NCBI RefSeq assembly: GCF_000745955.1
Contig: NZ_JQKH01000004.1
Coordinates: 1-64,000 of the forward strand
Direction of reading: 5' to 3'
DNA from: Alysiella crassa DSM 2578
GTDB lineage: Bacteria > Pseudomonadota > Gammaproteobacteria > Burkholderiales > Neisseriaceae
DNA length: 64,000 nt
Under the pieces are notes generated by a model. That model was not told the DNA's origin and ran no database searches. It saw only the letters and a list, made by a program, of their open reading frames with translations. Position numbers and translations under genes: made by a program. This document shows, piece after piece, positions 4,419 through 58,825 of this stretch. Position 1 is the stretch's first letter; every line of letters starts with the position of its first letter.

Positions 4419-4775
4419 GGTTTGTGTTCCTTAATTATTGATTATGGCTTTGCAGGCTGCCTGAAAAGCATTTTGGGCTAATTATAGCAAATTTTAATAC
4501 AAAATATCCGTCAAAACGCTCAATAATTGGTGTTTTGATTTTTCAGGCAGTCTGAAAGTTTTGTTAATGAGATAATAAAATTATCTATAATTAACAATAT
4601 TTTATATTTTAATTCGTTTGCCATCATTCAATGCAAACAACAACACGCCATAAAAAAAGTTGAGAATGATGTAAACTTTGTTAAAATAAGCTTTATTTTT
4701 ATCCCTGCAAAATCTGTCTATTTGTTGCAGGCAGCCTGCAATTTTTTAATCTCTTTCATTATTAAAGGAAAAATC
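4419..4775. other. Divergent intergenic region between ccoG and ndk
   Basis: No gene is seen in these 357 bases. They are AT-rich and hold one DUS (4450-4464), one degenerate DUS (4543-4556) and a small palindrome, TTGCAGGCAGCCTGCAA, near 4725-4741. A candidate ndk promoter lies at 4660-4687. Confidence 0.6.
4660..4687 (+). promoter_or_regulatory. Candidate sigma-70 promoter for ndk
   Basis: TTGAGA (4660-4665), a 16-base spacer and TAAAAT (4682-4687) stand about 90 bases before the ndk start. The match is fair to both consensus boxes. Confidence 0.4.
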
Positions 4776-14653: not shown

Positions 14654-15400
14654 ATGATTAAAATCAAAAATATACAAAAAACATTTGGCAATAACACCAT
14701 TTTGCGTGGCATTGATTTGGATATTGTCAAAGGGCAAGTGGTGGTGATTTTAGGACCTTCGGGTTCGGGAAAAACCACGTTTTTACGCTGCCTGAACGCA
14801 TTGGAATTGCCCGAAGCTGGCACGATTGAGTTTGAAAACAATCCCTTAAATATTGATTTTACCAAAAAACCAAATAAAAAAGACATTTTGGCATTGCGCC
14901 GCCGTTCAGGTATGGTGTTTCAGCAATACAATTTGTTTCCGCACAAAACCGCTTTGCAAAATGTGATGGAAGCTCCCGTGCAAGTGCAGGGCAAAAGCAA
15001 ATCGCAAGCCGAAGTGGAAGCCTTGAAATTATTGGAAAAAGTGGGTTTGGCGGACAAGGCGGATTTGTATCCACACCAGCTTTCGGGTGGGCAACAGCAG
15101 CGTGTGGGGATTGCGCGAGCGTTGGCGTTGCAGCCTGAATTGATGTTGTTTGACGAGCCGACTTCCGCGCTTGACCCTGAATTGGTGCAAGATGTGTTGC
15201 AAACCATGAAAGAATTGGCGCAAGAAGGCTGGACGATGGTGGTCGTTACCCACGAAATCAAATTTGCGCTGGACGTGGCAGATGTGGTGGTAGTGATGGA
15301 TGGCGGTGTGATTGTGGAACAAGGTTTCCCCGATGATTTGTTTGCCAATCCGCAACACGAGCGCACGCGCAGTTTTTTAAGTCGCATTGCCGCAGAATAA
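14654..15400 (+). CDS. Amino-acid ABC transporter ATP-binding protein
   Basis: This 248-residue GlnQ/TcyC-type ATPase energises the permease encoded just upstream. Walker A is GPSGSGKTT, the signature is LSGGQQQR, and Walker B is LMLFDEPTSALDPE. The His switch is in VVTHEIKFA. Codons for LRCLNALE overlap a DUS-like sequence. The pair is co-transcribed. It ends at a hairpin with a DUS in its loop. Confidence 0.92.
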   Translation: MIKIKNIQKTFGNNTILRGIDLDIVKGQVVVILGPSGSGKTTFLRCLNALELPEAGTIEFENNPLNIDFTKKPNKKDILALRRRSGMVFQQYNLFPHKTALQNVMEAPVQVQGKSKSQAEVEALKLLEKVGLADKADLYPHQLSGGQQQRVGIARALALQPELMLFDEPTSALDPELVQDVLQTMKELAQEGWTMVVVTHEIKFALDVADVVVVMDGGVIVEQGFPDDLFANPQHERTRSFLSRIAAE

Positions 15401-15407
15401 GAATAGA

Positions 15408-15451
15408 AGATGAAACGAGTGTTCAGGCAGCCTGAAGACTCGTTTTCATCT
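15408..15451 (+). terminator. Terminator with DUS in the loop, after the ABC transporter genes
   Basis: AGATGAAACGAGT (15408-15420) pairs with ACTCGTTTTCATCT (15438-15451, one bulged T), with a full DUS as the loop and TTTT at the 3' side. This is an intrinsic terminator whose loop carries an uptake site. Confidence 0.7.
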
Positions 15452-15479
15452 TTTCAGGCTGCCACAAATCCAACGCGCA

Positions 15480-15567
15480 AAAAAAAGGTGTGGAAAACCA
15501 CACCCCAAACACACACACATCAAGAGGAAAAGGAAAATTACAGAAATTTGCTTGCTGTAAATTTGTT
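15480..15567 (-). ncRNA. Predicted FNR-activated small RNA (FnrS/AniS-like)
   Basis: No protein gene is present here. On the minus strand a perfect FNR box (15602-15615) and a perfect TATAAT (15580 to 15575) place a start near 15567, exactly 41.5 bases from the centre of the FNR box. The transcript would run leftwards about 88 nt to an intrinsic terminator: stem GGTGTGG/CCACACC with a TTTT loop (15487-15504) and eight Us (15486-15479). A 5' stem UUACAG/CUGUAA is followed by the unpaired pyrimidine run UUUUCCUUUUCCUCUU (complement of 15522-15537), which is complementary to Shine-Dalgarno sequences. This is the layout of FNR-dependent sRNAs such as E. coli FnrS and meningococcal AniS. Expression is inferred, not shown. 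Confidence 0.7.
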
Positions 15568-15574
15568 AAATCGG

Positions 15575-15615
15575 ATTATAAATAAATTAAAAAAACAGAT
15601 ATTGATACAAATCAA
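15575..15615 (-). promoter_or_regulatory. Perfect FNR box with class II promoter for the sRNA
   Basis: TTGAT-ACAA-ATCAA at 15602-15615 matches the FNR consensus at all ten fixed positions. On the minus strand TATAAT lies at 15580-15575. On the plus strand TAATAT (15637-15642) has the mirror-image spacing, so the same box could also drive the HDAC-family gene at 15760. Confidence 0.75.
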
Positions 15616-15759
15616 GTTCAGATAAAATCATGCAAATAATATTCATCAAATTTACTTTTCAGGCAGCCTGAAAAATCAAATTCCCCATCTTTACATAAAA
15701 GCAGTACAATACTGCCCGCCGCAAAACGTGTTGCCAGCCAAATTGTTCACAGATTAGCC

Positions 15760-16797
15760 ATGAAATTGCCCAGACCTTTAACCATTCCCACCTTTATAAG
15801 CTATGCGCGTTATCTGAAACGCCGCTTCCTACGCCTGATTGGGCTGAAAGGACGCACGGCGTGGATAAGTGCGTCAGCTTGCCACGCGCATTTTGCAGGC
15901 AGGGAACACCCCGAAAGCCCCAAACGCTTGCAAGCCATTGAACAAGTGTTGCGCCGAAGCCACATTTGGGCGCGTATGCAAAAAGTAGAAGCGGTGGAAG
16001 TGAGCGAAATTCAATTGGCACGGGTGCATACGCTAAATTATATTAATAATTTGGAACATCATACGCCCAGTCAAGGTTTACACAAGGTCAATGAAGACAC
16101 TTATTTGGGCAAAGACACCTTTACCGCCGCCAAATATGGCGCGGGGGCTGCCGTTGCCGCCGTGAATATGGTGATGCAACGCCATGCTAAAAATGCGTTT
16201 TGCGCCGTCCGCCCTCCTGGGCATCACGCTCATGCCGACCACGCAAGCGGTTTTTGTTTTATCAATAATGCGGCGGTGGCGGTCATGCACGCGATTGCCG
16301 AATTTCGTTTGGAGCGGATTGCGGTCATTGATTTTGACTTACATCACGGCGATGGTACGCAGTCTATTTTTGAAAACGATGAGCGTGTGTTGTTTTTATC
16401 GTCTTTTGAATCACCGCTTTACCCATTCACAGGCACAGGCGAAACGCCGCCGAATGTGGTAAACACCATTTTCCAAGCTGGCGATAGCAGCGAAGTGTTC
16501 CGTGAACGCATTCGTGCCAAATGGTTGCCTAAATTGGCGTCTTTTCGCCCACAGTTGATTGTTATCAGCGCGGGTTTTGACGCGCACCGTGATGATAAAT
16601 TGGGGCATTTGAATTTGACGGAAGACGATTTTGGTTGGCTGACACATAAAATCATGCTGGTCGCCGACCGCCACGCCGATGGGCGCATTGTGTCGCTGCT
16701 GGAAGGGGGCTACAACCCCGATAGTTTGGCGTTGAGTGTGAAAGCACATTTGTCGTGTTTGGTGAATGCGAGTCGCTTCAGTCGGAATAGGGATTGA
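15760..16797 (+). CDS. Histone-deacetylase-fold (AcuC-like) hydrolase
   Basis: The 345-residue zinc-dependent hydrolase belongs to the arginase/deacetylase superfamily. Members remove acetyl groups from lysines or polyamines, but the substrate here is unknown. Motifs: VRPPGHHAHADHASGF with the catalytic His pair, VIDFDLHHGDGTQ with the zinc-binding Asp and His, and SAGFDAHRDD with another zinc Asp. The C-terminal LLEGGYNPDSLA motif is present. About 45 basic residues precede the domain. An FNR box lies about 150 bases upstream, suggesting oxygen-responsive expression. A strong hairpin terminator follows the stop. Confidence 0.88.
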   Translation: MKLPRPLTIPTFISYARYLKRRFLRLIGLKGRTAWISASACHAHFAGREHPESPKRLQAIEQVLRRSHIWARMQKVEAVEVSEIQLARVHTLNYINNLEHHTPSQGLHKVNEDTYLGKDTFTAAKYGAGAAVAAVNMVMQRHAKNAFCAVRPPGHHAHADHASGFCFINNAAVAVMHAIAEFRLERIAVIDFDLHHGDGTQSIFENDERVLFLSSFESPLYPFTGTGETPPNVVNTIFQAGDSSEVFRERIRAKWLPKLASFRPQLIVISAGFDAHRDDKLGHLNLTEDDFGWLTHKIMLVADRHADGRIVSLLEGGYNPDSLALSVKAHLSCLVNASRFSRNRD

Positions 16798-20720: not shown

Positions 20721-21455
20721 TTACAAAATCATTTTATGTGAACAACCCGACACCAATTCTCTCAATAAATCGGGTTTTAAAATGCGAATGTGCTTGTGTT
20801 CCACATCAATCAAGCCATCATGATTAAAGCGCGATAGGGTGCGGCTGACCGTTTCCAATTTCAAACCCAAATAACTGCCAATTTCTTCACGCGACATACG
20901 CAAAATAAAATCGTTTGCTGCAAAACCACGCGCCGCTAAGCGTTGCGACAAATTCAGCAAAAAGGAAGCCAAGCGTTCTTCCGCACGCATATTGCCCAAT
21001 AGCAACATCACATTTTGATTGCGGACAATTTCGCGGCTCAATAGGCGGAAAAAATGCGTGCTTAATTCGGGAATGCTTTGATTAATTTGTTCTAAGTTAT
21101 CAAAGGGTAATTCGCACACTTCGCTGTCTTCCAGAGCCACTGCGTCATTGGTGTAAATGCCGCTACTGATGCCGTTCATGCCCATCAGTTCGCCCGACAT
21201 GAAAAAACCCGTAACTTGGTCGCGCCCATCGTGCGTATTAACCGAAGTTTTGAAAAAACCCGTGCGAATGGCGTAAAGCGATGAAAACGGCTCGCCCACA
21301 TGAAACAAATATTCGCCTTTTTTCAAACGGCGACTGACTTTTATCACATGGTCTAATCGTGAAAAATCTTCGGTTTGCAAACCACTGGGCAAGCACACAT
21401 CATGCAGAGAGCAACTGGAGCATTGATTTTTGTTAAGCACAAACGATTTCTGCAT
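20721..21455 (-). CDS. fnr: Oxygen-sensing regulator FNR
   Basis: This CRP/FNR-family activator (244 residues) binds DNA as a [4Fe-4S] dimer when oxygen is low. Three N-terminal cluster cysteines are in CSSCSLHDVC, and the fourth is in SEVCELPF near residue 115. A cyclic-nucleotide-binding-like domain and a C-terminal helix-turn-helix follow. The recognition helix region LGLKLETVSRTLSRF carries the E..SR residues that read TTGAT half-sites. A perfect FNR box stands 48 bases before its start and is shared with the divergent hemN, so autoregulation is likely. Confidence 0.95.
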   Translation of the reverse strand: MQKSFVLNKNQCSSCSLHDVCLPSGLQTEDFSRLDHVIKVSRRLKKGEYLFHVGEPFSSLYAIRTGFFKTSVNTHDGRDQVTGFFMSGELMGMNGISSGIYTNDAVALEDSEVCELPFDNLEQINQSIPELSTHFFRLLSREIVRNQNVMLLLGNMRAEERLASFLLNLSQRLAARGFAANDFILRMSREEIGSYLGLKLETVSRTLSRFNHDGLIDVEHKHIRILKPDLLRELVSGCSHKMIL

Positions 21456-21502: not shown

Positions 21503-21543
21503 TTGATATAAATCAAAGCAACCCTATAAAAATTAAGTATATT
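21503..21543 (+). promoter_or_regulatory. Perfect FNR box and class II promoter for hemN (shared with fnr)
   Basis: TTGAT-ATAA-ATCAA occupies 21503-21516. TATATT at 21538-21543 predicts a start near 21551, which is 41.5 bases from the box centre, the classic position for FNR activation. Confidence 0.85.
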
Positions 21544-21617: not shown

Positions 21618-23018
21618 ATGAAAACCATTACCATTGCCAACACACCCGAATTTGTTTTTGACCGCGAACTGATTAGCAGCCTGCCAGCAAGTGGCCCGCG
21701 CTACACGTCTTATCCCACCGCCGACCGTTTTCACGATGGTTTCAGGCTGCCTGAATATGTGCAAACATTGGAAAATACGTTAAAAAACAATGATAAACCT
21801 GTTTCACTCTATGTGCATATTCCATTTTGTAATGTGATTTGCTATTACTGCGGCTGCAATAAAGTCATCACAAAAGACACGAGTAAAGCCGATGAGTATT
21901 TGACTTATTTGGAAAAAGAAATGGCTTTGCTCAAACCGCATTTGCATGGCAAACATAAATTGGCGCAATTGCATTTTGGTGGCGGCACGCCCACGTTTTT
22001 GAACGATGAACAATTGGAACGTGTGTTCAAAATGATACGCGAACATTTTGAATTGTTGCCCGATGGCGAGTATTCCATTGAAATTGACCCGCGCAAAGTG
22101 AGCCGCGAAAGTGTGTTTAAATTGGGGCAACTGGGTTTTAATCGCATGAGCGTGGGCATTCAGGATTTTGACCCGAAAGTGCAGGCTGCCGTGAACCGCA
22201 TTCAAACGGTGGAAGAAACCAAAACGGTGATTGAGGCAGCGCGTGAAGCAGGGTTTAAATCCATCAGCGTGGATTTGATTTATGGCTTGCCCCATCAATC
22301 GGTTACGAGTATTCAGCCAACTTTGGACACGGTGTTGAACGAGTTAAATCCCGACCGTTTGGCGTTGTATCATTACGCGCATTTGCCGCATATTTTCAAG
22401 CCGCAACGCCGCATTGACACCAACGCCGTGCCCTCTAGCGAAGAAAAATTGGATATTTTGCAATACGCGGTGCATTTGTTGAACGAAAAAGGCTATGTAT
22501 TCATCGGCATGGACCATTTTGCTAAACCCGAAGATGAGTTGGCGATTGCGCTAAAAGAAGGGCGTTTGCAGCGCAATTTTCAGGGCTATTCCACGCATGC
22601 GGATTGTGATTTGGTGGCGATTGGAGTGTCCAGCATTGGCAAAGTGGGCGACACTTACAGCCAAAATCAGCGCAATTTGGACGATTATTATGCGGATTTG
22701 GACGCGGACACCTTGCCGATTATGCGCGGCTTTCAATTGAACGATGATGATGTGTTGCGCCGCCAAATGATTCAGGATTTGATGTGTCGTTTTGCGCTGG
22801 AATTGGCGGATTATGGTGTGGATTTCAAAACGTATTTCGCCGAAGAATTGCCCGAATTGGACAATATGGCAAAACTCGGTTTGATTGAGTGGAACGCGCT
22901 TTCAGGCAGCCTGAAAGTTACGCCCAAAGGCAGATTTGTGATTCGCAATATTGCCATGATTTTTGATTATTATCTGCGCCATAAAGAAACCCACGCGAAA
23001 TATTCGCAAACAGTTTAA
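21618..23018 (+). CDS. hemN: Oxygen-independent coproporphyrinogen III dehydrogenase HemN
   Basis: This radical-SAM enzyme of anaerobic haem synthesis decarboxylates coproporphyrinogen III to protoporphyrinogen IX. It has 466 residues. The cluster motif is CNVICYYC (CxxxCxxC with the extra family cysteine in CGCNK). GGGTPTFLN is the SAM-binding glycine motif, and the C-terminal HemN domain is complete. Two DUS in the coding region give FRLPE near residue 43 and SGSLK near residue 433. Transcription is probably activated by FNR through the box described above. Confidence 0.97.
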   Translation: MKTITIANTPEFVFDRELISSLPASGPRYTSYPTADRFHDGFRLPEYVQTLENTLKNNDKPVSLYVHIPFCNVICYYCGCNKVITKDTSKADEYLTYLEKEMALLKPHLHGKHKLAQLHFGGGTPTFLNDEQLERVFKMIREHFELLPDGEYSIEIDPRKVSRESVFKLGQLGFNRMSVGIQDFDPKVQAAVNRIQTVEETKTVIEAAREAGFKSISVDLIYGLPHQSVTSIQPTLDTVLNELNPDRLALYHYAHLPHIFKPQRRIDTNAVPSSEEKLDILQYAVHLLNEKGYVFIGMDHFAKPEDELAIALKEGRLQRNFQGYSTHADCDLVAIGVSSIGKVGDTYSQNQRNLDDYYADLDADTLPIMRGFQLNDDDVLRRQMIQDLMCRFALELADYGVDFKTYFAEELPELDNMAKLGLIEWNALSGSLKVTPKGRFVIRNIAMIFDYYLRHKETHAKYSQTV

Positions 23019-58765: not shown

Positions 58766-58825
58766 GATTTTTTTCCTTTTTGAGGGATTTTCAGGCTACC
58801 TTTTACTACCCTACAAATTTTTGCC

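Follow-up and report, generated by a model that had tools for sequence, protein, structure and literature searches.

The locus lies in the window, by which we mean the whole 64-kb stretch of Alysiella crassa DNA that was analysed, between two genes that are both encoded on the plus strand. An amino-acid ABC ATPase gene ends at 15400, and a histone-deacetylase-like gene starts at 15760. The elements between them are on the minus strand, and the gene for their presumed activator is located about 5 kb away:

15602-15615, minus strand: FNR box TTGATACAAATCAA (TTGATTTGTATCAA read towards the sRNA), palindromic, without mismatch
15580-15575, minus strand: -10 element TATAAT, from the sequence
15567-15479, minus strand: AniS-type small RNA (sRNA) of about 89 nt, predicted start at A15567, from the alignment with Rfam RF02274
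15534-15564, minus strand: weak 5′ stem-loop UUUACAG...CUGUAA (local fold -4.5 kcal/mol), equivalent of the 5′ stem in the Rfam AniS consensus
15505-15530, minus strand: conserved core UUUCCUCUUGAUGUGUGUGUGUUUGG, presumed pairing region, from the core pattern in Neisseriaceae and Chromobacteriaceae
15479-15506, minus strand: intrinsic terminator, a hairpin and a U8 tract, from sequence and fold
20721-21455, minus strand: fnr, presumed activator (NCBIfam NF008365, 231 bits, above the cut-off)

The original prediction described an FNR-activated small RNA from three elements: a perfect FNR box, a minus-strand TATAAT at the class II position, and a GC-rich hairpin with eight Us that serves no minus-strand gene. 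All of them are present. Two perfect FNR boxes are found in the 64-kb window, against 0.19 expected, and the composite of box, N21 and TATAAT with zero mismatch occurs there only once. With the predicted start at A15567, the centre of the FNR box is placed at -41.5, which is class II spacing. Along the minus strand, the FNR box is followed by TATAAT, an AT-rich 5′ part, UUUUCCUUUUCCUCUUGAUGUGUGUGUGUUUGG, the hairpin and the eight Us. The hairpin is GGGGTGTGG-TTTT-CCACACC, with a GGGGUGUGG/CCACACC stem, at about 15506-15487, and the eight Us are at 15486-15479. No minus-strand gene reading into this terminator was found among the neighbours; since both flanking genes are on the plus strand, it ends no gene. 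The overall fold of the sRNA is mildly more stable than its shuffles (z -1.73). On the plus strand, a 71-codon ORF (15410-15625) runs antisense to the sRNA and could be miscalled as a gene; AniS itself was formerly annotated as a coding sequence (NMB1205/NGO0796). The second perfect FNR box of the window, at 21503-21516, is located between fnr on the minus strand and hemN on the plus strand (start at 21618), and TATATT follows it in the hemN direction at class II spacing. Judging from this arrangement, hemN is likely to be under FNR control through this box, and fnr is possibly autoregulated by it.

A covariance comparison with AniS bears out the proposed class of RNA. In a permissive Rfam search, positions 1-106 of the AniS model (RF02274) aligned end to end with 15567-15479 of the minus strand, core and terminator included (45.7 bits, E = 4.9e-7), and the ends of the alignment are the start and the U-tract end to which promoter and terminator had independently pointed. 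The score does not reach the gathering cut-off of 50 bits, and the Rfam search of the window at the gathering threshold gave no match. An AniS match at E<=1 is found in 79 of 83 Neisseriaceae genomes, and only 37 of these 79 reach 50 bits. Thus, the low score reflects a model best suited to Neisseria, and no special weakness of the locus in the window. When 15380-15700 was scanned with all Rfam families, AniS alone matched, and the enterobacterial FnrS family did not. As far as its sequence tells, the RNA is a diverged homologue of AniS and not an Rfam-certified member. Weak second AniS matches of 27-30 bits occur in two other genomes (G086:C26:96418-96519, G086:C8:53816-53914 and G002:C1:1882319-1882393), and these are either paralogues or chance.

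The AniS/FnrS RNA of pathogenic Neisseria is well described. In the gonococcus it measures 108 nt, its FNR box is at -41.5, and a 5′ stem-loop is followed by an unstructured middle and a terminator; a fusion of its promoter to lacZ is induced 260-fold without oxygen, and the RNA was reported to be the most strongly FNR-induced transcript of this organism (PMC3032703). AniS/FnrS requires FNR, is induced when oxygen is absent, and binds Hfq and ProQ (PMC3032703, PMC7272453, PMC5458458), and meningococcal AniS was found to be bound by both proteins (PMC7272453). The window sRNA shares with AniS/FnrS of N. meningitidis and N. gonorrhoeae the box at -41.5, the 5′ stem-loop, an identical UUUCCUCUUGAUGUGUGUGUGUUUGG, the terminator and the U tract. 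However, it is shorter (89 nt against 106-108 nt), its 5′ half and terminator stem have diverged, and its gene neighbourhood is different. Enterobacterial FnrS follows a similar principle, as it is an anoxic sRNA with a terminator, produced from an FNR class II promoter; no relation in sequence to the window sRNA was detected.

The original prediction expected box, -10 element and terminator to be conserved in relatives, and they are. The 16-nt core query TTCCTCTTGATGTGTG, with one mismatch allowed, matched in 80 of 83 Neisseriaceae genomes, or in 79 after G008 is dropped, where the remainder of the element is absent; the core was thus undetected in G010, G018, G008 and G024. Core and terminator are normally single-copy in a Neisseriaceae genome, and the few second matches of the pattern lack the remaining element. 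An exact 18-nt scan of 84,980 species added Chromobacterium, Vogesella, Aquitalea, Paludibacterium and Gulbenkiania; a few matches in unrelated taxa all lack the element. The terminator varies in sequence across the relatives, and its stem is kept. An FNR-type box with a -10 element at 27-29 nt is found upstream in all 98 distinct cores (at exactly 28 nt in 83), against just 6 of 98 when the upstream regions are shuffled. Since all 98 loci have such a box, FNR control is, to judge from the promoters, general to the whole AniS family. Homology to AniS, the promoter architecture of all 98 relatives, and the presence of fnr and hfq in the genome, the latter elsewhere than in the window, give strong support to the view that the window encodes an FNR-activated sRNA related to meningococcal AniS. 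The pyrimidine run UUUUCCUUUUCCUCUU, to which an anti-Shine-Dalgarno (anti-SD) role had been assigned, is present, and the predicted ensemble leaves most of it unpaired, but conservation in the relatives is limited to UUUCCUCUUGAUGUGUG..., and the preceding UUUUCC is specific to the window genome.

The distance from box to core is bimodal among the 98 loci, 52-193 nt or 209-303 nt. In the long class, an intact ORF of 40-50 codons lies between the FNR promoter and the core, and it belongs to Pfam DUF3149 (PF11346; best E 2.4e-10). When four example ORFs were tested with PF11346, three were at or above the cut-off, and the ORF of the A. crassa congener scored 19.1 bits alone and 23.2 bits with its frame neighbours. 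Thus, 50 of the 98 AniS cores are the 3′ UTR of genes for membrane proteins of about 45 aa, with promoter and transcript common to gene and core, as expected of a 3′-UTR-derived sRNA. The other 48 copies, the window copy among them, are solo: their coding region has disappeared, has decayed or is found at an FNR locus of its own. The window sRNA has FNR promoter spacing, core and terminator in common with the DUF3149 mRNAs of Neisseriales, but these mRNAs keep the ORF between promoter and core and the window copy does not, and no DUF3149 match was found in the window genome. The sole congener in the set (G001) has the DUF3149 ORF together with the core. No synteny around the core was found between the two genomes, so that the step from the ORF-plus to the solo state is not seen in place in this genus.

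Within Neisseriaceae, DUF3149 is almost confined to the position directly upstream of the AniS core. In three genomes (G036, G087 and G090; loci L206, L207 and L208), DUF3149 has a locus to itself, complete with FNR box and ordinary terminator, and a solo AniS is found elsewhere, apparently a splitting of the two functions. DUF3149 and AniS are split likewise in the Chromobacteriaceae genomes G109 and G235. In one genome (G019, locus L004), the ORF interval is of full length and the reading frame is broken. DUF3149 genes without an AniS core also occur in several other Burkholderiales families (L176-L205), where an FNR box often precedes the start codon by 67-90 nt. From this, the DUF3149 micropeptide seems to have a widespread role in the anoxic response. 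No paper on DUF3149, and no report of an AniS origin from its mRNA, was found in the open-access literature searched.

From the observed sequence elements, the AniS homology, conservation, promoter linkage and the presence or absence of the ORF in relatives, we consider it very probable that 15567-15479 of the minus strand encodes a stand-alone, FNR-driven sRNA of the AniS type, a putative anti-SD repressor aided by Hfq and descended from the emancipated 3′ UTR of a DUF3149 mRNA. We infer for A. crassa that the RNA is transcribed, depends on FNR, binds Hfq and pairs with targets, as follows. Without oxygen, FNR (20721-21455) would bind the box at -41.5 and recruit RNA polymerase to TATAAT. The product would be an RNA of about 89 nt with the 5′ stem-loop, a largely single-stranded UUUCCUCUUGAUGUGUGUGUGUUUGG and the terminator with its U8 tail, and Hfq, perhaps also ProQ, would bind its 3′ part. 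The U/C-rich segment would then pair with the ribosome-binding sites of mRNAs that are unwanted in anoxia and repress them. SD-type sequences are complementary to the invariant segment UUUCCUCUUGAUGUGUG, which is predicted to be open at its U/C-rich end and partly paired in its GU repeat. Anti-SD repression is a plausible working model by analogy with the NmsR RNAs and with NMB1468 and prlC, reported as targets of AniS (PMC5458458). NmsRA/NmsRB (RcoF) of N. meningitidis have UC-rich anti-SD regions, with sdhC among the reporter-validated targets (PMC5362039), and the likeness to the window sRNA is drawn from this description. Unlike the window sRNA, they are tandem copies with three stem-loops under stringent response control.

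Targets were searched for in the window genome with the pattern AAGAGGAA-N3-10-ATG. It gave 7 matches against 5 for the reversed control, which is no genome-wide signal, and most of the matches are inside genes. Two are at convincing gene starts, and one of these is sdhC, identified from sequence. The sdhC leader (L289; G000:C1, about 46040, minus strand) reads AAAGAGGAAAUCUUUAUG, in which AAGAGGAAA is the perfect complement of UUUCCUCUU in the core. Of 30 sdhC leaders in the family, 11 have the 8-mer AAGAGGAA, and many of the remainder have AGAGGAA. In calculated energy, duplexes of the core with sdhC leaders have only a small advantage over shuffles (mean z -0.64; +0.49 for atpD), and GU repeats inflate these values. 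Because SD sequences of orthologues are often conserved anyway, and the duplex energies are unimpressive, sdhC stays a lead. It makes sense physiologically and is a better candidate than potE and ndk, but it is unproven, and the balance of probability is somewhat against it. The latter two genes had been put forward as local targets but find no support: their motifs (58770-58781 and 4764-4773) are ordinary purine-rich SDs, which would pair with the non-conserved, genome-specific UUUUCC.

The lack of a genome-wide excess of perfectly complementary SDs would also be expected if the conserved 3′ segment were merely a terminator with a conserved leader, serving as a docking site for Hfq or ProQ or as an mRNA-stability element without any pairing in trans. 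In half of the loci the segment is simply a 3′ UTR, and in N. meningitidis ProQ binds the base of the AniS terminator and the flanking single strand (PMC11912907). Nevertheless, we hold this explanation to be unlikely: the invariant part, with its anti-SD sequence, precedes the hairpin, whose own sequence varies, solo copies under an FNR promoter are retained in many lineages, and AniS-dependent repression of NMB1468 was reported in a reporter assay (PMC5458458).

The direction of change was examined with 70 scored genomes on a tree built from the atp locus by maximum likelihood. Eleven changes of the ORF state are needed on it, against a mean of 21 with shuffled labels, and all 11 can be read as losses; as a single locus was used and some branches are weak, this number is an estimate. 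The inferred losses fall in the window genome, G002 (Eikenella group), G009 (Conchiformibius group), the Snodgrassella group, G004, G086, G087, G019, the G071/G088/G023 group, the large Neisseria clade including the gonococcus, and the split Chromobacteriaceae. This pattern suggests that AniS arose as the tail of a DUF3149 mRNA, whose coding part was lost about eleven times. Parsimony on the tree alone cannot separate gain from loss, and the two states are about equally frequent (48 solo, 50 ORF-plus). Both points would agree with an ancestral solo sRNA, into which the DUF3149 ORF was inserted, once or repeatedly, between FNR promoter and core. This history is quite unlikely, since eleven insertions at a single spot are improbable, and most of the Chromobacteriaceae copies that were scanned by accession or name are ORF-plus. 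Loss is favoured over insertion because FNR-boxed DUF3149 genes without the core exist in other Burkholderiales, one ORF has decayed, and split pairs are found.

An ORF has been lost from an sRNA before. SgrS/SgrT of enteric bacteria similarly combines a small 5′ ORF with a 3′ pairing region and a terminator. SgrS encodes SgrT in most enteric bacteria, and SgrS of Yersinia is truncated and has no ORF (PMC4021124), which makes it a precedent. Regulator, peptide and sequence are different from those of AniS, and no homology is claimed. In the window genome, the DUF3149 coding region would have been lost, and the 3′ UTR left as an independent sRNA. Since the 3′ UTR is conserved, the ORF-plus mRNAs would presumably release a processed sRNA. 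For the order as a whole, we regard it as fairly likely that AniS is a bifunctional transcript of Neisseriales, in which a single FNR-induced RNA codes for a DUF3149 membrane micropeptide and bears an anti-SD sRNA within its 3′ UTR, that the coding half was discarded or transferred to an FNR locus of its own about eleven times and the sRNA was left alone, as in the window, and that sdhCDAB may be an old target.

That the FNR box instead serves the plus-strand histone-deacetylase-like gene (start at 15760), with the minus-strand features incidental, is very unlikely, for although a weak plus-strand -10 element (TAATAT, 15637-15642) has equal spacing from the palindromic box, this element has two mismatches whereas the minus-strand one is perfect, and both the AniS homology and the linkage of box to core in 98 loci belong to the minus strand. 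A divergent FNR promoter at 15602-15642, directed also towards that gene, is possible.

The placement in a 3′ UTR would explain the origin of AniS, and it extends AniS from Neisseria to the whole order Neisseriales. At its cut-off, the present Rfam model recovers fewer than half of the Neisseriaceae copies. The invariant segment is the part to mutate in searches for targets. Genomes with the ORF, with a decaying ORF, with split loci and with a solo sRNA form a natural series for the passage from the tail of an mRNA to an independent regulator.
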